Origin: Candidatus Aminicenantes bacterium
GTDB taxonomy: Bacteria; Acidobacteriota; Aminicenantia; Aminicenantales; UBA4085
Length of the DNA: 49,790 nt
Direction: 5' to 3'
NCBI GenBank assembly: GCA_026393855.1
Contig: JAPKZJ010000109.1
Span: forward strand, 1-49,790
Of the stretch, positions 2,328-49,643 are shown piece after piece. Both the position numbers and the translations under genes were made by a program. The notes under the pieces were generated by a model. That model saw only the letters and a list, made by a program, of their open reading frames with translations, ran no database searches and had not been told where the DNA came from. How positions within the stretch are numbered: position 1 is the stretch's first letter; each line of letters starts with the position of its first letter.

Positions 2328-3683
2328 ATGTTTTCGAAGATTCTCATCGCCAACCGTGGTGAGATCGCCCTGCGGGTGATCCGGGCCGCCCGGGAGCTCG
2401 GCATCAAGACCGTGGCGGTCTATTCCGACGTCGACCGGAATTCCCTCCACACCATGCTGGCCGACGAGAAATACTGCATCGGCCCGGCCGCCGCCCGCGA
2501 CAGCTATCTGAACATCCCCAACCTGCTGAGCGTGGCCGAGATCTCCAAGGCCGACGCCATCCACCCCGGTTACGGCTTCCTGGCCGAGAACGCCCGCTTC
2601 GCCGAGATCTGCGAGACCTCGGGCCTGACCTTCATCGGCCCGCCGGCCTCCATCATCCGGATGATGGGCGACAAGAACCGGGCCCGCCAGGAGATGGGCA
2701 AGGCCAAGCTGCCGCTCATCCCGGGCAGCGACAAGATCCTCGAGGACGCGGCCGAAGCCAAGCTGGTGGCCCAGAAGATCGGCTACCCCGTCATCATCAA
2801 GGCCGCGGCCGGCGGCGGCGGCAAAGGCATGCGCATCTGCCGCAATTCGAACCACCTGGAAGAGCAATTCCCCATCGCCCAGAACGAGGCCAAAACGGCC
2901 TTCGGCGACCCCTCGCTGTACATCGAGAAGTACATCACCGGGGCCCACCACATCGAAATCCAAATCATCGGCGGCCAAAAGGGCGAGATCATCGCCTTCG
3001 CCGAGCGCGAGTGCTCGGTCCAGCGCAAGTACCAGAAAGTCATCGAGGAGACGCCCTCCCCCTTCGTCGACGACCGACTCCGCAAGCGGATGATGAAGGC
3101 CGTCGAGGACGCCGCCGAGCACATCGGCTACGAGAGCCTGGGCACCTTCGAGTTCCTGGTCGACGAGGACAAGAAGTTCTACTTCATGGAGGCCAACACC
3201 CGGGTCCAGGTGGAGCATCCCATCACCGAGATGGTCTACGGCATCAACCTGGTCAAGGCTCAGATCCGGGTGGCGGCCGGCGAGAAGATCAACTTCCCCT
3301 TCGACCTGGAGATCCGCGGCCACGCCATCGAATGCCGGATCAACGCCGAGGACCCGACGACCTTCGCCCCCTCGCCCGGCAAACTCGAATTCCTGGTCCT
3401 GCCCGGCGGCGAGGGCATCCGGGTGGACTCGGCCGCCTACGGCGGCTGGGTCATCCCGCCGACCTACGACTCGCTGGTGGCCAAGATCATCGCTTACGCT
3501 CCGACCCGCTATCTGGCCATCAAGAAGATGCAAACCGCCCTGGAGATGACCACTATCGTGGGCATCAAGACGAACATCCCGCTGCACCTGGCCATCCTGG
3601 CCAACTCGGACTTCCAGAACGGCAACTACGACACCCAGTTCCTGGAAAAGTTTCTGGCCAAGAAGGCCAACGGCGGGACGTAA
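2328..3683 (+). CDS. accC: Acetyl-CoA carboxylase, biotin carboxylase subunit
   Basis: Uses ATP and bicarbonate to carboxylate biotin on AccB. It is 451 residues (E. coli 449) with the full domain order: an N-terminal fold (MFSKILIANRGEIALRVIRA), an ATP-grasp domain with the glycine loop AAAGGGGKGM at about 159-168, and a C-terminal domain. Catalytic positions are intact: Lys116, Lys158, His208, Glu275, Glu288, Asn290 and Arg292 in MEANTRVQVEHP. It pairs with accB in a two-gene operon; carboxyltransferase genes are not in the window. Its stop codon abuts repeat copy 1. A pyruvate or propionyl-CoA carboxylase subunit is possible, but adjacency to accB favours acetyl-CoA carboxylase. Confidence 0.95.
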   Translation: MFSKILIANRGEIALRVIRAARELGIKTVAVYSDVDRNSLHTMLADEKYCIGPAAARDSYLNIPNLLSVAEISKADAIHPGYGFLAENARFAEICETSGLTFIGPPASIIRMMGDKNRARQEMGKAKLPLIPGSDKILEDAAEAKLVAQKIGYPVIIKAAAGGGGKGMRICRNSNHLEEQFPIAQNEAKTAFGDPSLYIEKYITGAHHIEIQIIGGQKGEIIAFAERECSVQRKYQKVIEETPSPFVDDRLRKRMMKAVEDAAEHIGYESLGTFEFLVDEDKKFYFMEANTRVQVEHPITEMVYGINLVKAQIRVAAGEKINFPFDLEIRGHAIECRINAEDPTTFAPSPGKLEFLVLPGGEGIRVDSAAYGGWVIPPTYDSLVAKIIAYAPTRYLAIKKMQTALEMTTIVGIKTNIPLHLAILANSDFQNGNYDTQFLEKFLAKKANGGT

Positions 3684-4025
3684 ATCGGTATCGTTCCCCA
3701 TTCTCGGAGCCTGCGGGGCGGTATCCGGCCCGGCGGCTTCGGGCTCTACTCGTCTTTTTCCACAGCTCTCCTCGGCGCCTCGGAACTCCGCATTTAAGAT
3801 CGCCCGGTATCGTTGCCCACCCAATCCGTTTCGATAACGAGAGATGGTCGCGTGCTCAAACAGCCCTCGGCACATGCAGCCGAAGGCGCTAACATATCCC
3901 CGCCTTCGAAGGCGGGGTAGGGGTGGTGATATCAATGAGAATAAAAGTGTTGTGCGCCTTCGGAATAAAAAGCTTTTCCTTCGCCCTGCGCAACGAACCT
4001 CCGAGAATGGGAAACGAAATCGATT
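3684..4025 (+). repeat. Mosaic intergenic repeat, copy 1 (module type B)
   Basis: Fills the whole space between the convergent accC and LecA-like genes. The ends form an inverted repeat of about 26 bases: 3684-3709 against 4000-4025, sharing CCATTCTCGGAG and its complement. Inside are a left module also found in copies 2 and 5 (ending in TTTCCACAGCTCTC), the invariant core CTCAAACAGCCCTCGGC (3855-3871), and a right module shared only with copy 4. That module includes the perfect 20-base palindrome 3898-3917 and the run GGTGGTGATATCAATGAGA. No gene is recognised inside. A MITE-like or REP-like element, possibly forming terminators, is the best description. Confidence 0.85.
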
Positions 4026-4577
4026 TTACCCCCGGGGTGGGGGTTTTCGGTAAATCCGGACGACGAACTCTCCCGTATTGTCGCCGGTGATGTTTTCGTT
4101 GACGCCCAGCATCAGCTTGCCTTCCTCGGGCATCGACGCCAGAACCCCCTTGCCGATGGCGAAGCGCTCGCCGTACCGGCGCTCGGTCTTTTCCTTGGTC
4201 TGCTTGTCCTCGATCACATCGACCCGGAAGACGACCATCCCGATCAGGCTGCCCAGGTTCTTGTCGGGCAGGGGCTGCTGCATCGTCCGCAGGGCCAGGC
4301 CCTCGGGCCCGCAGGTTGCCACGGGATTGTTCTTCTGGATGCAGATCGATCCCTCGGCCTCGAAATAGAACTCGTCGCCCAGCTTGACCTGCAGTCCGGT
4401 GTCGGTCCAGGCTGCGCTGCCGGCCTGGGTGATCGTTTTGATCAGGACGAAGCTTTCGGGGGGACCGGTCTGCGCGGCAGGGGGCGTCGGAGGCGGCTCC
4501 TGCCCCGCCAGGGGCGGGACCAGAACGAGGAGCAGCGCGGCGAGGAGAAAGCTTGCAGCAGGTCCGATGTTCCTCAT
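4026..4577 (-). CDS. Exported protein with LecA (PA-IL)-like sugar-binding domain
   Basis: A 183-residue protein with an N-terminal signal peptide (hydrophobic residues 8-24, then LAGQE) and a Pro-rich linker. One beta-sandwich domain covers about 45-180. LKLGDEF-type and EFYFEAEGSICIQ segments, then NLGSLIGMV and GKLMLGVNENITGDNTGEF, resemble the PA-IL/LecA galactose-binding fold, whose C-terminal N-D-N-x-G pattern binds calcium and sugar. Binding to a sugar is inferred from that resemblance. A strong GGGAGG ribosome site lies before the start. It follows suhB after 53 bases on the same strand. Its stop codon lies at the edge of repeat copy 1. Confidence 0.65.
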   Translation of the reverse strand: MRNIGPAASFLLAALLLVLVPPLAGQEPPPTPPAAQTGPPESFVLIKTITQAGSAAWTDTGLQVKLGDEFYFEAEGSICIQKNNPVATCGPEGLALRTMQQPLPDKNLGSLIGMVVFRVDVIEDKQTKEKTERRYGERFAIGKGVLASMPEEGKLMLGVNENITGDNTGEFVVRIYRKPPPRG

Positions 4578-4630: not shown

Positions 4631-5410
4631 CTATTTCGGCTTCAGAACGGAAAGCATGGCCTCGTGGACGAGGCCGTTGCTGGCGCAGACTTCGGGGCGA
4701 TAGATGTCGACGGGCCGGCCGTCGAAATCCGTGATCCGACCGCCCGCTTCCCGGACGATGACGGCGCCGGCGGCCGTGTCCCAGGGGCTCAGCTTGAGCT
4801 CCCAGAACCCGTCGAAGCGGCCGCAGGCCACGAAGCAGAGGTCCAGGGCGGCCGAGCCGCAGCGCCGGATGCCTTGGCAGCGCATGACCATCCGCTCATG
4901 CTCGTCGATGTTGCAGCGGGTGGTCCAGACGTCGTAGCCGAATCCGGTGGCTAGGAGGGCGTGGCCCAAATCGGCCGTCGGCGAGATGCGGATGGGCGAG
5001 CCGTTGTGGAAAGCCCCGCCGCCTCTCTCGGCCCAGAACAGATCGCCGGTCATGGGATTGTGAACGACGCCCGCGGCCAGGTCGCCCCCTTTCTCCAGCC
5101 CGATCGAGACGCAGAAGACGGGCAGCTTGTGGGCGAAATTGGTCGTTCCGTCAAGGGGATCGATGACCCAGCGGAACTCGGCCCCGGAGAAGGATTTGAC
5201 TCCCTCCTCGGCCAGGAAATCATGCCCGGGGAAGGCCTTGGACAGGCGATCGATAATCAAGGCCTGGGCCAGGGTATCGGCCTCGGTGACGAGGTTGATC
5301 TCGCCTTTGTACCGGATTTCGGTCAAGCGATGGTATCTCTCCCGGAGAAGAGATCCCGCCTCGAGGGCGATCCCCCGCGCGGTCTCCAAATACGCCGTTA
5401 GCTCGCTCAT
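4631..5410 (-). CDS. suhB: Inositol monophosphatase family protein
   Basis: A magnesium-dependent phosphatase of the IMPase/SuhB family (259 residues, typical 260-270) that hydrolyses inositol-1-phosphate or related sugar phosphates in the cytosol. Metal-binding motifs are intact: AEEG (about 67-70), WVIDPLDGTTNFAHKLP (81-97) and SPWDTAAGAVIVREAGG (208-224). The start at 5410 has no Shine-Dalgarno sequence. A -10-like TAAAAT ends only ten bases before the ATG, which suggests a leaderless or near-leaderless message. It lies upstream of the LecA-like gene on the minus strand and is separated from lepB by repeat copy 2. The exact substrate cannot be told from sequence. Confidence 0.88.
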   Translation of the reverse strand: MSELTAYLETARGIALEAGSLLRERYHRLTEIRYKGEINLVTEADTLAQALIIDRLSKAFPGHDFLAEEGVKSFSGAEFRWVIDPLDGTTNFAHKLPVFCVSIGLEKGGDLAAGVVHNPMTGDLFWAERGGGAFHNGSPIRISPTADLGHALLATGFGYDVWTTRCNIDEHERMVMRCQGIRRCGSAALDLCFVACGRFDGFWELKLSPWDTAAGAVIVREAGGRITDFDGRPVDIYRPEVCASNGLVHEAMLSVLKPK

Positions 5411-5426: not shown

Positions 5427-5484
5427 CCATAAACACCTCATAGACCATTGGCACACCAATCCTATTTATAGGGTTCTTCGCCTA

Positions 5485-5772
5485 ATTCCGGGAAGGGCGG
5501 TTCGGGATGTCGACCCGGCGGCTTCGGGCTCTTTTCGCCTTTTCCCACAGCTCTCTTCGGCGCCTCGAAACTGCGCATTCCAGATTGTCCGATTTGGGAG
5601 ACCACCCACTCTGTTTCGATTCCGTTTGGTGGTCGCGTGCTCAAACAGCCCTCGGCGCCTGGCCAGAGCCAGGTTCCCTCAGAGAGTTGTGGAAAAAGGC
5701 GCCGCCCTCGCAATTTCGCCGTTGGCCAACACCCCTAACCGCGTTCATTTCCCGGAGATGGGAGATGAGCCT
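5485..5772 (+). repeat. Mosaic intergenic repeat, copy 2 (module type A)
   Basis: Occupies most of the lepB-suhB intergenic space. The left end is ATTCCGGGAAGGGCGG; the right end, inverted, is related (CCGGGAAA...CGCGGTT). Internally it has the left module (CGGCTTCGGGCTCTTTTCGCC, then TTTCCCACAGCTCTCTTCGG), the core CTCAAACAGCCCTCGGC (5640-5656), a short GCCTGGCC/GGCCAGAG-like hairpin and the type A right module (AGAGTTGTGGAAAAAGGCGC, then CAATTTCGCCGTTGGCC). The type A right module is also in copies 3 and 5 but not in copies 1 and 4, where a different block sits at the same place. The nearly continuous open frame across it is not conserved between copies, so it is treated as non-coding. Confidence 0.85.
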
Positions 5773-5801: not shown

Positions 5802-6497
5802 CTAATGAACGACCTTGAGAATGCGATTTAAGCGAGCCCGAGTGAAGAAGCCGGCGAATTTCTTGAGCCGATCGGCCAAGCCTGTCTTTAGATATGCTCC
5901 AGATTCGGCAGCGTACGAGAAATAGATGACCCAGGGTCTCCCCTTGAGGTTGGCCTTGGGAACAAAACCCCAATACCGGCTGTCCTCGCTGTTATCTCGA
6001 TTATCCCCCATAGCAAAGATCGAATCGGGAGGGACGGTGATGGGGCCAAAATTGTCGCGTCGTGAGTCCTCGGCCGAGTCATAGATGCGGGGATCGATAT
6101 GGCGTTTATAGAGTTCTTCAATAGGCTTATCGTTGACGAAAACCTGTTTTTTTATGATTTCGATCTTATCGCCCGGGAGGCCGATAACCCTCTTAACATA
6201 ATCCTTGCTTAGCTCATTAGGGTATTTGAAGACGATAATATCTTGTCGCCTAACAGGCCTCTTGGGTAGGACCCATTGGTCAATCCCGTTGCTCACATTG
6301 CGGTATGCCATCTTATTGACAAGAAGAAAATCACCCACAAGCAAGTTCGGTTCCATCGATCCAGTCGGAATCTGGAACGCCTGGACAACGAAGGTCATGA
6401 CGAAGAACACAAAGACCGCTGTCTCGATAATAAGCTCAAAATACTCTCGAAACGGCTTTGGGCTCTTTTTATTTCTTTCTCTTCTCATCTTGTTCAT
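5802..6497 (-). CDS. lepB: Signal peptidase I
   Basis: Removes signal peptides from exported proteins at the outer face of the inner membrane. It is 231 residues with one N-terminal membrane helix (about 22-42) and the catalytic Ser47 in IPTGSMEPNLLVGD. The general base is Lys102 in DYVKRVIGLPGD, and box E is GDNRDNSEDSRYWGF. The start is uncertain among a GTG at 6506 and ATGs at 6497 and 6488, all next to a GGTGGGGGG stretch; 6497 is used. Base composition is unlike its neighbours: 6181-6240 is 37% G+C by count, and the upstream region is lower still. Recent acquisition or relaxed composition is possible, though the protein looks fully functional. Confidence 0.94.
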   Translation of the reverse strand: MNKMRRERNKKSPKPFREYFELIIETAVFVFFVMTFVVQAFQIPTGSMEPNLLVGDFLLVNKMAYRNVSNGIDQWVLPKRPVRRQDIIVFKYPNELSKDYVKRVIGLPGDKIEIIKKQVFVNDKPIEELYKRHIDPRIYDSAEDSRRDNFGPITVPPDSIFAMGDNRDNSEDSRYWGFVPKANLKGRPWVIYFSYAAESGAYLKTGLADRLKKFAGFFTRARLNRILKVVH

Positions 6498-17271: not shown

Positions 17272-18126
17272 ATGCGCAAACTCCCCCTCGTCACCAAAGG
17301 CCTGAATAAGCGGTTGTGGGCCATCATCATTATGGTCGGCGCCTATCTCATCTACATCTCGCTCGGCGATCTCATCCCGCAGTACTGGAACTGGGTCGGC
17401 TTTCGGGCCCTGGAGCGCTCCATCCTGACGCTCGGCTTCGTCCTTATCCTGGTCATCGCCCTGAGCGGGATTGCCTTGAGCGAACGGCTGACGACGCTGG
17501 CGGTCCGGGACGGGCTGACCGGGCTTTACAACCAGACCTACATCAAAGCCCGGCTGCAGGAGGAGATCCAGCGGTCCGAGCGCTATAAGTCGGCCCTCAG
17601 CCTGATGATGATCGACCTGGACGACTTCAAGCCGCTTAACGACCGCTACGGCCATGTCGTCGGGGACCGCGTCCTGTGCGCCTTCGGCGAGCTCCTGCAG
17701 GACGTCGTCCGATCCTCGGACGTCGCCGGGCGGTACGGGGGCGAAGAGTTCCTGGTCATCCTGCCCATGACTTCCTGCTTGGACGCGGCCGCCGCGGCCG
17801 AGCGCATCCGCAAGGAGATCTCCCTTTTCCCCTTCCGAACCGACCATATGGACGACAGGACCTGCCGGATCACGGTCAGCATCGGCGTCTACGCCTCGCC
17901 TTTCCTCAGCCAGAAGACCGAAGAGATCATCGGCCTGGCCGACGCGGCGCTCTATCGGGCCAAGAAGGAAGGGAAGAACAAAGTCGTCGTGTTCATTCAT
18001 CCCCTCCGTTTCGATTCCGTTAAATGGACGCGTGCTCAAACAGCCCTCGGCGGCCGTTGGCTTCCCTCGGAGAGTTGTGGAAAAAGGCGCCGCCCTCGCA
18101 ATTTCGCCGTTGGACGAACACCATGA
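17272..18126 (+). CDS. GGDEF diguanylate cyclase with repeat-derived C-terminal tail
   Basis: A 284-residue inner-membrane protein with two membrane helices (about 15-32 and 52-70) and one GGDEF domain (about 78-242). The domain has DGLTGLYNQ, the active-site GGEEF (156-160) and an inhibitory-site RxxD (RSSD, 147-150) five residues upstream. It should make cyclic di-GMP with product inhibition. The family normally ends after ALYRAKKEGKNKVVV. Here the frame runs on through about 42 residues encoded by repeat copy 3, whose same-frame peptide RAQTALG also occurs in translations of other copies. The start at 17272 follows AAGAAAGG at 17253-17260; an upstream start would overlap the FTCD-type gene. 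Confidence 0.88.
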   Translation: MRKLPLVTKGLNKRLWAIIIMVGAYLIYISLGDLIPQYWNWVGFRALERSILTLGFVLILVIALSGIALSERLTTLAVRDGLTGLYNQTYIKARLQEEIQRSERYKSALSLMMIDLDDFKPLNDRYGHVVGDRVLCAFGELLQDVVRSSDVAGRYGGEEFLVILPMTSCLDAAAAAERIRKEISLFPFRTDHMDDRTCRITVSIGVYASPFLSQKTEEIIGLADAALYRAKKEGKNKVVVFIHPLRFDSVKWTRAQTALGGRWLPSESCGKRRRPRNFAVGRTP

Positions 18127-18157
18127 CGCTTCACCTTCCCCGGAGACGGGAGAAGAT
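18001..18157 (+). repeat. Mosaic intergenic repeat, copy 3 (right half, type A)
   Basis: A partial copy beginning at the CCTCCGTTTCGATTCCG block and running through the core CTCAAACAGCCCTCGGC (18035-18051) and the type A right module AGAGTTGTGGAAAAAGGCGC, CAATTTCGCCGTTGG to a CCCCGGAGACGGGAGA end. The left half, including its terminal repeat, is missing. Its first 126 bases are the 3' end of the GGDEF gene. It ends 21 bases before the broken permease gene. Confidence 0.85.
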
Positions 18158-18178
18158 CATTTTTACTGGAGGTGAATC

Positions 18179-20758: not shown

Positions 20759-21748
20759 ATGAAACCGCCGACGAAGGGCCAGGGGTTCGAGCCGCGCGAA
20801 GTGCTGTTCTCTCCCCTCTCGGCCTGCAATCTCCGCTGCCGCCATTGTTCGGTGGCGCCGGGATCGGTGAGGCTGCCCGTCACGGCCGCGCTGCGATTTC
20901 TCGATTCCTGCCGCGGGACGCCGGTGGAGCGGATCGGGTTCACGGGCGGCGAACCGTTCCTCTACCCGTCGTTCCTCGAAGCCGTCTCCGCCCGGGCCGT
21001 CCGGCTCGGCCTGCTGTTCGATCGAATCACGACCAACGCGGTCTGGTTCCGGACGATCGGAGAGCTCCGGACGGCGTTGACGCGCCTGCGCGACAAAGGT
21101 TATGACGGCTCATTCGGCGTCAGCCTGGATGCTTTTCACGGCACCGGCGTCGCCAAGCCGGCCGCCTTCATCCGGACGGCGGCCGAAATCTGGAACAGGC
21201 CCGATATCGCCGGCGTCGTCGCCGTCCGCGGAGTGCGCGAAGCCGAGACCGAGGAACGATTGGCCGCGCTGGCATGGAAGCTCGAGGCCCGGCTCAGCGT
21301 ACGACAGGGCCGTCGGATCATCGCCTCGGATGCTTTCTTCATCCCGGTCACAGCGATCGACCTTGTTCCTCTCGGGCGGGCGGCTGACCTCGTCGACCCT
21401 TGGCGCGGCGCCTGGTTCAAGGAGGATTTCTGCCGCGGGCCCGGTCACGTCTTCTACGTCCTGCCCGATGGGGCGGTCAAGCCGTGCTGCGGATACGCCA
21501 CGGATGACGAGCGCCTGACGATCGGGAACATCAAACACCATACGGCCGCCGATCTCATCGCCCGCGCGGCGAAGAACGATTATGTCCGGGCCGTTTTCGA
21601 GCTCGGTCTGACCCGGATTCGTCAAAGACTGCTGGCGGGGGGAACGAAATTCCCCGGGCGGACGGCTAATCACTGCTATTTCTGCCATCACCTCCTGACC
21701 TCCGTCCCCCGCCCCAGGCTCGACGCCAGCCTGGGATCGGCCCGCTGA
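20759..21748 (+). CDS. Radical SAM protein with SPASM-like C-terminus
   Basis: A 329-residue radical SAM enzyme. The 4Fe-4S cluster ligands are Cys23, Cys27 and Cys30 in SACNLRCRHC, followed by the GGEPFLYP SAM-binding motif. The C-terminal third has further cysteines in FCRGPG, VKPCCGYATD (with the VLPDGAVKPCC pattern of SPASM-type domains) and NHCYFCHHLL, which could hold auxiliary clusters. The protein modified and the reaction are unknown; no small precursor peptide or maturation gene is next to it. It stands alone between the divergent zinc operon and repeat copy 4. Other radical SAM subfamilies acting on peptides or cofactors are possible. Confidence 0.8.
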   Translation: MKPPTKGQGFEPREVLFSPLSACNLRCRHCSVAPGSVRLPVTAALRFLDSCRGTPVERIGFTGGEPFLYPSFLEAVSARAVRLGLLFDRITTNAVWFRTIGELRTALTRLRDKGYDGSFGVSLDAFHGTGVAKPAAFIRTAAEIWNRPDIAGVVAVRGVREAETEERLAALAWKLEARLSVRQGRRIIASDAFFIPVTAIDLVPLGRAADLVDPWRGAWFKEDFCRGPGHVFYVLPDGAVKPCCGYATDDERLTIGNIKHHTAADLIARAAKNDYVRAVFELGLTRIRQRLLAGGTKFPGRTANHCYFCHHLLTSVPRPRLDASLGSAR

Positions 21749-21775: not shown

Positions 21776-22108
21776 CCTCAGCGGTTCGGTGTGTCGGCCA
21801 ACGGCGAAACCGAGAGGAGAAAGCTTTTTATTCCGAAGGCGCACAACACTCTTATTCTCATTGATATCACCACCCCTGCCCCGCCTTCGAAGGCGGGGAT
21901 TGGATAGCACCTTCGGCTGCATGTGCCGAGGGCTGTTTGAGCACGCGACAATCTACCGGAATCGGAACGGAGGGGGTAGTCTCCATAACCGGGTGATCTC
22001 GAATGCGGAGTTCCGAGGCGCCGAGCGGATTTGCGTAAAAAGGAGTGGTGAACCCGCGCCGCCGTGGTGACACTCCGGACCGCGTTTCCCGGAGTTGGGA
22101 GATGAACC
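21776..22108 (-). repeat. Mosaic intergenic repeat, copy 4 (module type B)
   Basis: Inverted relative to copies 1-3. The low-coordinate end has GCGGTTCGGTGTGTCGGCC; the high end, inverted, reads GGTTCATCTCCCAACTCCGG. The core is at 21925-21941. It shares with copy 1 the type B right module, including the perfect 20-base palindrome (21879-21898) and the GATATCA-containing block. Beyond this module its outermost segment (GGCCAACGGCGAAA) matches type A copies 2 and 5, so type B looks like an insertion or replacement inside a common frame. It lies between the radical SAM and SCP2 genes. Confidence 0.85.
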
Positions 22109-22201: not shown

Positions 22202-22600
22202 ATGACCCCTTTGCCGTATTTAAGCGAGGAGTGGCGGGCCGAGGCGGAACGCCGGCTTAAGGCCGAGCTGACGCCCGAGCAGTTGAACCGCACGAACGCA
22301 TCGATGTCGAACGTCCACTTGGACTGCCCCGGCGGAGGAACGAAATACGTCCTGTTCCGGTTCAAGGACGGAGCTTTGACGACGCTCGCCATCGGTCCCG
22401 GCGAGCCGCCGGAGGCCGAGTTCCACCTCACCGGTTCCTACGAAGTCATGGTCAAGATCTTGCGGGCCGAGCTGGGCGCCAAGAAAGCCCTGATGAGCGG
22501 CCAGATCAAGCTCAAGGGCAACATGTTCAAAGCCATGCAACTGGCCTCCGTCGCCGAGAAGGTGGATAAAATCCTGTCCGGCATTCCGACCGAATATTGA
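22202..22600 (+). CDS. SCP2 sterol-binding domain protein
   Basis: A 132-residue single-domain protein of the SCP2 (sterol carrier protein 2) fold, which binds lipids or acyl-CoA in a hydrophobic tunnel. Matching segments are the early helix, then KYVLFRFKDGALTTLAIG, EAEFHLTGSYEVMVKILRAE, KKALMSGQIKLKGNM and a final helix. There is no signal peptide, so it is cytosolic. It has a strong ribosome site (AAAGGAG) and near-consensus promoter, suggesting high expression. The exported RidA gene begins four bases downstream. The ligand is unknown. Confidence 0.8.
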   Translation: MTPLPYLSEEWRAEAERRLKAELTPEQLNRTNASMSNVHLDCPGGGTKYVLFRFKDGALTTLAIGPGEPPEAEFHLTGSYEVMVKILRAELGAKKALMSGQIKLKGNMFKAMQLASVAEKVDKILSGIPTEY

Positions 22601-22604
22601 GACT

Positions 22605-23075
22605 ATGGCCATGAAGAAATATTTCATCCCGACCCTGGCGATCGCCATGGCCGTCTTCGGCCTCGTCACCTTGACGGCCCAAACCGTCAACGCCCCCAAA
22701 GCCGTCATCCAGACCGACCAGGCGCCCAAGGCGATCGGACCGTATTCCCAGGCCATCACGGCCGGCGGGTTCGTATATTGTTCGGGCCAGCTGGCGATCG
22801 ATCCCGCCACGGGCAAGCTCGTCACGGGCGGCATCGAAGAACAGACCCGTCAGGTCCTCAAGAACCTGCAGGTCATCCTGGAGGCGGCCGGGAGCTCGCT
22901 CGACCGCGTCGTCAAATGCACGGTCATGCTCGCAGATATGGGCGAGTTCGCAGCCATGAACAAAGTCTATGCCGAATTCTTTAAGACCGCCCCTCCGGCC
23001 CGGGCCACCTTCCAAGTGGCCAGGCTGGCCCTCGACGCCAAGATCGAGATCGACTGCATCGCCGTCAAACGGTAG
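22605..23075 (+). CDS. RidA-family protein with N-terminal signal peptide
   Basis: A 156-residue protein: a signal peptide or anchor (about 1-28, MKKYFIPTLAIAMAVFGLVTLTAQ) is followed by a complete RidA domain. Conserved features are QAPKAIGPYSQAI, VYCSGQLAIDPATG, GGIEEQTRQVLKNL and the Arg in PPARATFQVARL that binds the substrate carboxylate. The glutamate usually found in EIEAIA is Asp here (EIDCIA). RidA deaminates reactive enamine/imine intermediates in the cytosol; an exported version is unusual. A second RidA without a signal is at 34248-34628. Its 3' end overlaps the convergent eamA gene by 11 bases. ATG 22611 is an alternative start. Confidence 0.88.
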   Translation: MAMKKYFIPTLAIAMAVFGLVTLTAQTVNAPKAVIQTDQAPKAIGPYSQAITAGGFVYCSGQLAIDPATGKLVTGGIEEQTRQVLKNLQVILEAAGSSLDRVVKCTVMLADMGEFAAMNKVYAEFFKTAPPARATFQVARLALDAKIEIDCIAVKR

Positions 23076-24375: not shown

Positions 24376-24454
24376 ATTCCCGCGTCCGTCCCGCGTCAAA
24401 AACGTTCAAGAACATAGCGTTGACGGCTATCGCCTTGGTTTTGCGATACGATGG

Positions 24455-24590
24455 GATTCAATCGCTCCAGGCTCCTTGGAGGGGAGGCAGAGACGGGCCG
24501 GTCGCAGACCGGCACGGAACGTTGGAGGGGAACCCGGCTAAAGGGTTCCCCTCCAAGGGAGTCCAAGGGAGTCCCCACTTGAGTTCGGCC
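24455..24590. repeat. Hairpin-rich non-coding stretch upstream of pepD
   Basis: Between the divergent GspG-like and pepD genes. It holds a perfect hairpin with 14-base arms (24522-24535 and 24543-24556; arm TTGGAGGGGAACCC) and 7-base loop, a smaller one CCGGTC-GCA-GACCGG (24498-24512), and a tandem direct repeat AAGGGAGTCC. The TTGGAGGGG motif occurs again on its left (24475-24483). No riboswitch family was recognised. It could be a structured leader, a REP-like element or a terminator without a T-run. Confidence 0.6.
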
Positions 24591-34247: not shown

Positions 34248-34628
34248 ATGAAAGAAGCGATCCATACCGATCATGCGCCCAAGGCTCTCGGCCCCTATTC
34301 GCAGGCCATCCGTCACGGCCAGATGGTCTTCTGTTCCGGCCAGGTGGCCATCGACGCGGCCACGGGCAGCGTCGTCGCCGGCGGCATCGAAGAACAGACC
34401 CATCAGGTCCTTAAGAACCAGGCGGCCGTCCTGGCCGCGGCCGGCTGTTCCTTGGCCGACGTCGTCAAAACGACGGTTTTCCTCACCGACATGAACGAGT
34501 TCGCGGCCATGAACAAGGTCTACGGCGAGTACTTCCCGGCCCCGTTCCCGGGACGATCGACCGTCCAGGTCGTCCGCCTGCCCAAGGACGTCAAGGTCGA
34601 GATCGAAGTCATCGCCGTCAAGCCCTAA
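34248..34628 (+). CDS. ridA: RidA-family enamine/imine deaminase (cytosolic)
   Basis: A 126-residue RidA, the normal family length. Features are DHAPKALGPYSQAI, MVFCSGQVAIDAATG, GGIEEQTHQVLKNQ, FPGRSTVQVVRLPKDVKVEI and the conserved final glutamate in EIEVIAV, so the catalytic Arg and Glu are both present. It hydrolyses 2-aminoacrylate and similar intermediates. GAGAGGAGATT precedes the ATG. It follows pbpC by 85 bases and overlaps the convergent membrane-protein gene by four bases. It is clearly related to the exported RidA at 22605-23075, but has no signal peptide. Confidence 0.93.
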   Translation: MKEAIHTDHAPKALGPYSQAIRHGQMVFCSGQVAIDAATGSVVAGGIEEQTHQVLKNQAAVLAAAGCSLADVVKTTVFLTDMNEFAAMNKVYGEYFPAPFPGRSTVQVVRLPKDVKVEIEVIAVKP

Positions 34629-46188: not shown

Positions 46189-47738
46189 ACATCCCCGTGC
46201 TGACTTGCCTGATGGCCCTGCCGCTGGCCGGGGCGGCGCTGCTCGTATTCCTGCCCAAGGAACGCAAAGAAGTCCTTTATGGCACGGCCCTGGCGGTCAC
46301 GCTTCTCGTCCTGGTCTTGGCCGTCTGGATGTTCATCCGTTTCGACGGCAGTACGGCCGCCCCCCAGTTCGTCGAGCGGGCGGCCTGGTTGGGCGGCGGG
46401 ATTCAGTATCACCTGGGTGTGGACGGCATCAGCCTGGTCCTGATCCTGCTCACGGCTTTCCTGGTACCGCTGGCCCTCCTCTCGTCCTGGAACGCGATCC
46501 GAGCCAAGCTGAAAGAATATCTGTTCTTCCTGCTTCTGCTCGAAGCCGGCGTCATCGGCGTCTTCGCCGCCCTCAACCTGTTCCTCTTCTATGTCTTTTG
46601 GGAAGCCATGCTCATCCCGATGGTCTTCCTGATCGGCGTCTGGGGCGGCCCGCGCCGGGTCTATGCGGCCACCAAGTTCGTCTTGGTCACCATGTCGGGC
46701 AGCCTCCTGATGCTGGCCGCGATCCTGGTCCTCGGTCATCTCTCCGGCCAAGCGGGCAGCCCAACGACATATGACATCTTCGAGCTTTATCGCCTGGCCA
46801 TCCCGGCGGGGACTCAGACTTGGCTCTTCCTGGCCTTCGCCCTGGCCTTCGCCATCAAGGTGCCGATCGTCCCGCTGCACACCTGGCTTCCGGACGCCCA
46901 TGTCGAGGCGCCCACGGCAGGCTCGGTCCTGCTGGCGGCGGTCCTGTTGAAGATGGGCGCATACGGGTTCCTCAGGCTGGCGATCCCGCTGTTTCCCGAC
47001 GCGGCGGCCCGTTTTCTTCCCGCTCTCGCCGGGCTGGCCATCGCCGGAATCCTGTATGGCGGTTTCATGGCCCTTGTTCAGAAGGACATCAAATCCCTGG
47101 TCGCTTACTCATCCGTCAGCCACATGGGTCTGATCATGCTGGCGCTCTTTTCCCTGAACATTGAATCCGTCCAAGGGGCGGTCTTTCAGATGCTCAATCA
47201 CGGCTTGAGCACCGGGCTGCTCTTCCTTCTGGTCGGCATCCTCTACGAACGGGCCCACACCCGGGCCATCGCGGATTTCGGCGGCGTCGCCCGGGTCATG
47301 CCGGTCTTCGCCGGCTTCTTCCTCATTGCCTCGCTCTCTTCGCTCGGCCTGCCCGGCCTCAACGGGTTCGTCGGCGAGTTCCTCTGCTTCTACGGCATTT
47401 TCGGGGCCAATCCCATCTGGGCCGTCCTGGCCGTGCCGACGGTCATTCTAGCCGCCGCCTATCTATTGGGCCTCGTCCGGCGCGTCATGCACGGCCCTGT
47501 CGCCAACGATCTCGTCCGCAACCTGAAGGATATCAGCGCCCGCGAGATCGTCGTCGTCGTCCCCATCGTCGTCATGATTGTCTGGATGGGCCTCTTTCCC
47601 CGCACCTTCCTGGCCAAGACCGAAGCGTCAGTGGCGGGATACATCCAACTGCTCAAGGGACATGATCGGGTCTTTGTCCGGCAGCCCGCCCCGGCCCGGC
47701 CGGCGGGACCCGGCCAAGCCCGGGAGCGGTCGCTGTGA
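46185..47738 (+). CDS. nuoM: NADH-quinone oxidoreductase subunit M (antiporter-like)
   Basis: A 517-residue antiporter-like subunit, the middle proton pump. Motifs are FYVFWEAMLIPMVFLIGVWGG (conserved Glu), AIKVPIVPLHTWLPDAHVEA (conserved Lys) and QKDIKSLVAYSSVSHMGLI. Fourteen helices are expected. The N-terminus is normal and the C-terminus carries a short Pro/Ala/Arg tail. It overlaps nuoL and nuoN by four bases at each end. Confidence 0.96.
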   Translation: MNIPVLTCLMALPLAGAALLVFLPKERKEVLYGTALAVTLLVLVLAVWMFIRFDGSTAAPQFVERAAWLGGGIQYHLGVDGISLVLILLTAFLVPLALLSSWNAIRAKLKEYLFFLLLLEAGVIGVFAALNLFLFYVFWEAMLIPMVFLIGVWGGPRRVYAATKFVLVTMSGSLLMLAAILVLGHLSGQAGSPTTYDIFELYRLAIPAGTQTWLFLAFALAFAIKVPIVPLHTWLPDAHVEAPTAGSVLLAAVLLKMGAYGFLRLAIPLFPDAAARFLPALAGLAIAGILYGGFMALVQKDIKSLVAYSSVSHMGLIMLALFSLNIESVQGAVFQMLNHGLSTGLLFLLVGILYERAHTRAIADFGGVARVMPVFAGFFLIASLSSLGLPGLNGFVGEFLCFYGIFGANPIWAVLAVPTVILAAAYLLGLVRRVMHGPVANDLVRNLKDISAREIVVVVPIVVMIVWMGLFPRTFLAKTEASVAGYIQLLKGHDRVFVRQPAPARPAGPGQARERSL

Positions 47739-49156
47739 CGACGATGTCCGCCCTCCTGCCGCTAGCCGTCGTCTCGGCGGGGGCCATCTTTGTCCTTCTC
47801 CTCGATGCCTTCTGGAAGCGCGAATCGAAGGCCCATCTGGCCGTCGTCTCGCTCGTCATTCTGGGCGCATCGGCCTTTTTCACGATCGGGCTCTGGGGCC
47901 GCGACGCGTCCTTTTTTTTCGGAAGCAGCCTGCGCCTGGACGACGCGGCCATCCTGACCACCCTCCTCCTCTTGGCCGCAGCTGCGTTCACCGTCCTTCT
48001 CGGATGGGGTTGGATCCAGCGTCTCGACGCCGCCTTCGGCGAATTCTACGGGCTCCTCCTTCTGGCCGCAGCCGGGCTGATGATCATGGCCCAGACCCGC
48101 GACCTCCTGGTCGTCTTTTTGGGACTGGAGGTGTTTTCAGTCTCCGCCTATGGGCTGACCGGATTGAAGCGGAACGACGACAAGGCCTCCGAGGCGGCCG
48201 TCAAGTATTTCCTGACCGGCAGCTTCGCCGGCGCCTTCCTGGTCTTTGGACTGGCGGTCCTTTTCGGTCTGACCGGAAGCTTCGGCATCGCCGAGACAGC
48301 GGCCTCTCTCGGGAGCGGCCCCACGGCTCTGCTGGGGTTCGGCTTCCTCCTTTCCGGGCTCGCCTTCAAGCTGGCTCTGGCGCCCTTCCACATGTGGGCG
48401 CCCGACGTCTATGAAGGCGCCCCGACCCCAATTGCCGGATTCTTTGCGGTCGCCCCCAAGGCGGCCGGTTTTCTGGTTTTGCTTCGGCTCGTGGCGGCGG
48501 TCCCCAAGGCCGTCTGGGTCAGTCTGCCCGTCTTCCCCTTCCTTTACGCTGTGGCCGCCTTAACCCTTGTCGTCGGCAACCTGGGCGCCCTGCGGCAGAA
48601 GAACCTCAAGCGTCTGCTGGCCTATTCGAGCATCGCGCACGCCGGGACGATGGCCATCGCCGTCTTGGCCGGCGATGGGGCCAGCCTCTTCTTCTACCTG
48701 GCCAATTATCTGTTCATGGGCCTGGGCGCCTTCGCCGCCCTGACCGCCATGTCCAGTCATGGTCGGGAATACAACGAGCTGGACGATTTCGCGGGAGCCG
48801 GGTTCAAATATCCCTGGATCGGAGCGATCTTCGCCGTGATCCTGATCTCCATGGCCGGCTTTCCCCCGACGGGCGGTTTCCTGGCCAAGTTCCTGGTCTT
48901 TTCGGCCGGCGTCAAAGCCGGCCTGACCCCCCTCGTCATCCTCGGCGTCGTGACCAGCCTTCTTGCGGTCGCCTACTATCTGCGCGTGGTCGTGGTCATG
49001 TATATGCGGGACCCGGCGCCCGGCGTCGAAATCGAGATCGAGAATCCCTCCGCCCTGCTGGTCCTGTTCCTGGGGCTTGTCGGCGTCATCCAACTCGGCT
49101 TATTCCCGGCCAACATCCTGCATTTCATCCGTCAGGCCGCGGCATCGTTGTTCTAA
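47735..49156 (+). CDS. nuoN: NADH-quinone oxidoreductase subunit N (antiporter-like)
   Basis: A 473-residue antiporter-like subunit next to NuoK. The conserved Glu is in VVFLGLEVFSVSAYGLTGL and the conserved Lys in AFKLALAPFHMWAPDVYEGAPTPIAGFF. LRQKNLKRLLAYSSIAHAG is also typical. The GTG at 47735 overlaps the nuoM stop by four bases (GTGA); an in-frame ATG at 47744 is an alternative start. It is the last gene of the operon. The repeat copy 5 element follows 74 bases downstream and may hold the terminator. Confidence 0.95.
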   Translation: MTTMSALLPLAVVSAGAIFVLLLDAFWKRESKAHLAVVSLVILGASAFFTIGLWGRDASFFFGSSLRLDDAAILTTLLLLAAAAFTVLLGWGWIQRLDAAFGEFYGLLLLAAAGLMIMAQTRDLLVVFLGLEVFSVSAYGLTGLKRNDDKASEAAVKYFLTGSFAGAFLVFGLAVLFGLTGSFGIAETAASLGSGPTALLGFGFLLSGLAFKLALAPFHMWAPDVYEGAPTPIAGFFAVAPKAAGFLVLLRLVAAVPKAVWVSLPVFPFLYAVAALTLVVGNLGALRQKNLKRLLAYSSIAHAGTMAIAVLAGDGASLFFYLANYLFMGLGAFAALTAMSSHGREYNELDDFAGAGFKYPWIGAIFAVILISMAGFPPTGGFLAKFLVFSAGVKAGLTPLVILGVVTSLLAVAYYLRVVVVMYMRDPAPGVEIEIENPSALLVLFLGLVGVIQLGLFPANILHFIRQAAASLF

Positions 49157-49230
49157 GCCCTTCACAACCGCATCCCCGCCTTCGACGCAAGGAGTTGTGT
49201 CATGGATTTCGGGATAAAGATCTTCGCCAA

Positions 49231-49609
49231 ATTCCAGGGAGGTTAGGCGGTTCGGAGTGTCGGCCAACGGCGAAATCGCGAGGGCGGCGCCTTTTTCCAC
49301 AACTCTCCGAGGGAACCTGGCGTTGCCAGGTGCCGAGGGCTGTTTGAGCCTGCAATTATCGATCGGAATCGAAACGGAGTGGATAGTCTCTATAACCGGA
49401 TGATCTGGAAAGCGCAGTTCCGCCCTCGCGGGGACTGCCGAAGCGACGTCCCTACGAGGACTGCGAAGCGCTGGAGGCACCGAAGAGAGCTGTGGGAAAA
49501 GGCGAGAAGAGCCCGAAGCCGCCCTCGCGAGGACTGTTGAAGCAACCGTCCTGGCGAGGACTATCAAAGCTTTGCCGGGACGATACTCCGAACCGCCCCT
49601 CCCGGAACT
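49231..49609 (-). repeat. Mosaic intergenic repeat, copy 5 (type A plus tandem 26-bp units)
   Basis: The longest copy, lying between nuoN and the convergent gene at the window edge, in reverse orientation. The outer ends are matched inverted repeats (GGCGGTTCGGAGTGTCG at 49247-49263; the complement of GGCGGTTCGGAGTATCG at the right). The core is at 49332-49348. It has the type A module. It also carries two insertions that copies 1-4 lack, each a tandem pair of units of about 26 bases related to CCTCGCGAGGACTG..GAAGC: 49421-49472 and 49520-49571. The first lies exactly where copy 2 joins GCCTC to AACTGCGC. No protein is recognised. Confidence 0.85.
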
Positions 49610-49643
49610 GCGCTAAAACTAAAAAAAAGCGGGTATTCGGCCT

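Follow-up and report, generated by a model that had tools for sequence, protein, structure and literature searches.

The locus and its five repeat copies

The window, by which we mean the whole stretch of DNA analysed, is the entire contig C109 (49,790 bases, 64% G+C) of an incomplete MAG assembly from an Acidobacteriota bacterium, the genome amounting to 3.68 Mb in 144 contigs. Genes were called with our own caller (periodic Markov model, start choice and dynamic programming), which returned gene ends in the window identical to those of an earlier sequence-only reading, and Pfam backed the named genes that were tested, i.e., accC and those annotated as GGDEF, ABC-3 permease, EamA and NuoN-like. 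Five copies of one repeat, a miniature inverted-repeat element (MITE), lie among these genes. Copy 1 (3687–4021, plus strand) is situated between accC and a convergent gene (4026–4577) and fills the 342-bp gap at 3684–4025; as had been claimed, it abuts stop codons on both sides, with the last base of the accC stop at 3683 and the end of the minus-strand gene at 4026. It contains an alternative internal module (~3873–3975) with the palindrome CCCCGCCTTCGAAGGCGGGG, and a search of its ends for an 8-bp target duplication revealed none. Copy 2 (5472–5771, plus strand) is complete, lies between the minus-strand genes 4631–5410 and 5802–6356, and is bounded by an imperfect 8-bp duplication (CCTATTTA / CCTAATTA), the A/T-rich target-site sequence on its left occupying 5461–5471 and the right partner starting from ~5770; its predicted fold has an energy of -136.6 kcal/mol (z -4.9). 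Copy 3 (17998–18165, plus strand) is missing its left half and sits within the 3'-terminal codons of the GGDEF gene (17272–18126), whose reading frame continues to 18126 inside the repeat, such that the final 42 residues are encoded by copy 3 sequence. Copy 4 (21782–22108, minus strand), with the alternative internal module and one degraded end, is flanked by the plus-strand genes 20759–21748 and 22202–22600, and copy 5 (49218–49621, minus strand), with extra repeated hairpin segments, lies near the contig end and downstream of a nuoN-like gene (47735–49156).

According to the sequence-only reading, every convergent gene pair of the window either overlaps tail to tail or is separated by exactly one copy. 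The three overlaps are indeed of 11, 4 and 8 bases (22611–23075/23065–23913, 34248–34628/34625–36421 and 39192–40322/40315–40797, respectively), and a single element does occupy the accC gap. The two other pairs fit in part: copy 3 has its start (~17998) within the GGDEF gene rather than between this gene and the permease gene, and copy 5 is located behind the nuoN-like gene as stated, while the putative "edge gene" facing it is an open fragment of 48–56 codons where the contig ends. The remaining two of the five copies (5472–5771 and ~21782–22108) had gone unmentioned, and both are between codirectional genes. Our comparisons also showed that the ridA-like genes at 22698–22997 and 34251–34550, each located where an overlapping convergent pair meets tail to tail, are 74% identical over 300 bases, and that the window holds a second dispersed repeat (24444–24565) of ~115 bp with G+C-rich hairpins (GGAGGGGAACCC...GGGTTCCCCTCC), which reaches a depth of ~11 in a 1.10 Mb sample of the genome and has four copies on contig C36.

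A modular repeat family restricted to one lineage

A search of the 3.68 Mb genome with the conserved core block of the repeat (GTGCTCAAACAGCCCTCGGC) identified 91 matches at ≤3 mismatches, 44 in forward and 47 in reverse orientation, and a reversed control pattern gave 0 matches. Relatives were represented by 94 genomes of the same order, including the genus-mates G089 and G088; at ≤1 mismatch the core was present in only 2 of the 94, with 87 copies here and 5 in G089, where additional copies of greater divergence were also seen. The core also matched exactly in four unrelated taxa, about as often as chance predicts for a pattern of 18.5 specified bases searched over 257 Gb, and these matches were set aside; a search of viral contigs for the core gave no match. 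Apart from a tRNA, Rfam 15 returned no family above its gathering threshold in the window, and the weak MIR396 matches below threshold reflect a generic long hairpin; a known Rfam RNA family was thus discarded as the identity of the repeat.

In a self-comparison of the 1.10 Mb sample the blocks were mostly 290–400 bp, with plain copies having clean ends measuring ~290–350 bp, all short, non-coding and dispersed. The family is modular: there are three arm types, an alternative internal module, and a few copies with extra hairpin segments. The consensus fold is a single long interrupted stem with short inner hairpins, and both the inverted ends and the hairpin described by the sequence-only reading were confirmed. 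The alternative internal module with its palindrome CCCCGCCTTCGAAGGCGGGG occurs in window copies 1 and 4 and in ~20 others (within the window CCCCGCCTTCGAAGGCGGGG and GGTGGTGATATCAAT are seen at 3873–3975 and 21820–21900). As there were also short matches to this internal stretch in G088, although that genome has no core match, the module may have started out as a separate repeat that the MITE picked up. There are also shortened, deleted forms of 120–150 bp with perfect duplications (e.g., TTTTATTT at C9:31356–31482).

Duplications and empty sites mark the repeat as a transposon

The terminal inverted repeats (TIRs) form a helix in which alignment columns 7–22 pair with columns 391–406 in 92.8% of cells. 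At least 7 of 8 flanking bases were equal in 24 of 42 clean copies, compared with ~10% of mismatched left-right pairs, a good duplication missing from the other 18; none of 2000 permutations (0/2000) reached the observed mean, and identity at a fixed offset peaked at 8. The A/T content is ~0.8–0.85 across exactly 8 bases on each side and ~0.42 beyond.

Sites without the element were found directly in the genus-mates. At the junction corresponding to copy 1, G089 has ~30 bp between the stops and no element, and G088 lacks the element as well. At that of copy 3 the G089 gene is intact, ending in ...KVVVFIK* with a few bases between it and the convergent stop, and the element is absent; in our genome the copy thus overwrote the GGDEF gene's own 3' end. 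The orthologous convergent stops at copies 1 and 3 are only ~5–30 bp apart in the genus-mate. The site of the copy at C71:21816 is likewise empty in G089, and at the position of that at C71:24190 G089 holds a shorter relative. With its 8-bp duplications, ISL3-type ends (see below) and empty sites, the repeat is a transposon, specifically a MITE. Another palindrome (CCCCGATTT..AAATCGGGG) is present at G089:C90:7300–7400 and at G089:C115 near 2800, where the studied genome has the MITE, a hint that a different repeat sits at similar sites in orthologous junctions of G089.

Ends shared with ISL3 insertion sequences

The ISL3 transposase family PF01610 was identified in 30 of the 94 genomes of the order, and there was no match to it in the studied assembly or in the two genus-mates; multi-copy insertion sequences (IS) are often lost from fragmented MAG assemblies. 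The mover is therefore deduced from the ends and duplications. ISL3 elements of the order carry the TIR GGTTCTCTTCCATATTGTGTGG. The one at L213 is 1,328 bp long, with GGTTCTCTTCCATATTGTGTGGGTAA as its TIR and a perfect flanking duplication of 8 bp (TTTTAATT); L209 and L214 resemble it, and L212 and L219 have ends of the GGATCATCTCCCATTTAGTTGG type. The best MITE ends agreed with the L213/L214 group at 20–21 of 22 bases and with the L212/L219 group at 16–17 of 22, and in ~1 Mb a search for L213-group ends gave forward matches only, with 0 for the reversed control. Beyond the terminal ~22 bases the resemblance stops, and the repeat is therefore a type II MITE. We examined lone TIRs for an autonomous partner, and the neighbouring genes put to Pfam either were ordinary genes of the host or had no family, none being a transposase. 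The assembly also encodes three Y1_Tnp (IS200-like/RAYT-type) genes (G000:C21:17565, C97:27570 and C36:12941), none of which was linked to this element, and a REP/RAYT origin was rejected, as TIRs with 8-bp duplications point to a DDE transposase.

Copies accumulate behind stop codons

Junction statistics were drawn from the 1.10 Mb sample, which comprises the stretches around all copies and a few extra stretches. Of the 126 convergent junctions 40 contained a copy, as did 45 of the 578 tandem and 12 of the 129 divergent ones; these proportions are inflated by a sample centred on copies, which does not inflate the comparison between junction types. The genome-wide convergent enrichment that had been predicted from the window holds (odds ratio 5.5 against tandem, p ~2e-11), while the rule for every convergent pair proved to be local, 69 non-overlapping convergent junctions in the 1.10 Mb being without a copy. 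Within tandem junctions, copies lay a median of 4 bp behind the upstream stop and 84 bp ahead of the downstream start, and 38 of 45 were nearer the stop (p 3e-6).

A/T octamers number 33 per kb in convergent gaps, 45 in tandem and 40 in divergent ones; because convergent gaps are not richer in them, octamer supply was rejected as accounting by itself for the preference. In intergenic DNA of this genome (64% G+C) these octamers occur at about six to eight times their density within genes, and the 5,318 located in coding sequence have received almost no insertions. The same convergent bias is known for the BOX, RUP and SPRITE repeats and IS elements of the pneumococcus, where it was explained by tolerance of insertion (PMC3049150).

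Alternative explanations for placement and fold

The sequence-only reading had attributed the pattern to a bidirectional transcription terminator or mRNA 3'-end protector, similar to REP/BIME elements and kept at convergent gene ends. Convergent enrichment, a long stable hairpin on both strands and the location directly behind stops all agree with such a role, and MITEs are able to alter mRNA stability or termination (PMC10969869). As the cause of the pattern we nevertheless consider it very improbable, since the 8-bp duplications, ISL3-type ends and empty sites are those of a transposon. An intrinsic terminator would be expected to pair a hairpin with its own T-run and to be conserved at the gene end, whereas here there is no T-run inside the element ends, the adjoining T-runs being duplicated target, and the orthologous junctions of genus-mates at copies 1 and 3 have 5–30 bp between stops and no element. 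Moreover, 57 of the 97 placed copies, i.e., more than half, are in tandem or divergent junctions, the 69 convergent junctions mentioned above are empty, and copy 3 replaced the end of its own gene. A terminator function is not needed for explaining the pattern, and a secondary role as terminator or protector at some sites is conceivable. The bias could also have been set at insertion, were the transposase to target intrinsic terminators (T-runs behind hairpins) in the manner of group IIC introns. A host hairpin with a T-rich duplicated octamer directly behind it does accompany 10 of 48 clean copies, as opposed to 12 of 131 A/T octamers from copy-free convergent gaps (p 0.04) and 2–4% in other gaps; this comparison is marginal and its control octamers overlap each other. 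With ~80% of copies having no such terminator we regard targeting as an unlikely source of the bias, to which a slight preference for host terminators may contribute.

The fold raises a separate question, as its covariation is stronger than a decaying parasite needs, which counts against our preferred explanation of a MITE moved by an ISL3 transposase. Over 40 copies 96.4% of cells were paired, compared with 86.3% in shuffles; 25 of 52 pairs were changed on both sides; and the covariation score was 0.336, as against 0.05–0.11 with slid partners. Double (compensatory) changes were also found inside each of the three arm types, and blocks near the apex (CTCGGCGCCTCGGAACTCCGCA and GCTCAAACA(G/T)CCCTCGG, for example) hardly vary, in contrast to stem positions with identities as low as ~50%. 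On the plus strand G.T pairs outnumber A.C pairs (49 to 21), as expected for a selected RNA of that strand, although the sequences counted are related. These features would fit an element that also encodes a structured RNA (or a protein-bound single-stranded DNA hairpin) whose fold and loops are under selection. Matching arms could, however, also come from hairpin-templated arm-to-arm correction or from a few founding lineages, no Rfam family reached threshold, and a search for a promoter found none. Selection for a structured RNA is thus possible, and we hold it as a tentative, minority reading. We are somewhat more doubtful of the fuller proposal, which would join ISL3-driven spread, pair-by-pair covariation in three arm types and invariant single-stranded blocks into a mobile element with a selected structured RNA as its transcript (or single-stranded form), serving at scattered sites behind genes in regulation or protein binding.

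Discussion

Based on the above, the repeat is very probably a type II MITE that an ISL3-family (DDE) transposase mobilised in trans and inserted into A/T octamers, with selection shaping its distribution afterwards. We infer both the mover and the filter; the ends, duplications, empty sites and position statistics were observed directly. The transposase would recognise ends of the form GG(T/A)TC(A/T)TCTCCCAT... or GGTTCTCTTCCATTCTGTGTGG and would excise or copy the element, which would then insert into A/T-rich octamers that become duplicated. Purifying selection would purge insertions from coding sequence and from promoter and leader regions, and the survivors would be those directly behind stop codons, densest at convergent junctions, next behind the upstream gene of tandem pairs, and least dense at divergent ones. 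The convergent pile-up would accordingly exist mainly because insertions there are the least harmful, rather than because copies were placed there for ending transcripts.

The element has counterparts in IS-mobilised bacterial MITEs such as Nezha, MITEAba12 and QMITE2 of Coxiella (PMC10969869, PMC5896051), which are likewise non-coding and <500 bp, share TIRs with an IS, generate target duplications, form a very stable hairpin, and are mostly intergenic or in 3' UTRs with dozens to hundreds of copies. It differs from these in being G+C-rich, in its ISL3-type ends, in a stem that covaries over the whole length, and in that the assembly lacks an autonomous partner. BOX, RUP and SPRITE of Streptococcus pneumoniae (PMC3049150) are similarly interspersed, folded, lineage-restricted and significantly over-represented at convergent junctions, and BOX is modular as well; their sequences are unrelated, however, and they belong to another transposase family and another phylum. 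The ISL3 IS of the order (L209, L212, L213, L214 and L219) resemble the element in their TIRs (20–21 of 22 bases) and 8-bp A/T-rich duplication, but are ~1.33 kb, encode the PF01610 transposase and have no similarity to it inside the ends. REPs are short sequences with a GTAG/GGAG motif that Y1 RAYT enzymes mobilise, and they have no target duplications. The likeness to REP/BIME suggested by the sequence-only reading stands as to lifestyle, both being palindromic extragenic repeats often behind genes, but does not extend to sequence, and the element, with TIRs and an 8-bp duplication, falls outside the definition of REP/BIME. No account of elements of this sort in Acidobacteriota MAGs turned up in a small literature search.

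What had been a tempting "terminator" pattern thus becomes a quantified example of transposon survivorship for which duplications and empty sites are documented and a transposase family is named; it illustrates that a gene-orientation rule at the scale of a window can arise when selection acts against all other positions. Should the covarying fold truly be under selection, this family would be a good test case for a parasite RNA becoming part of its host.
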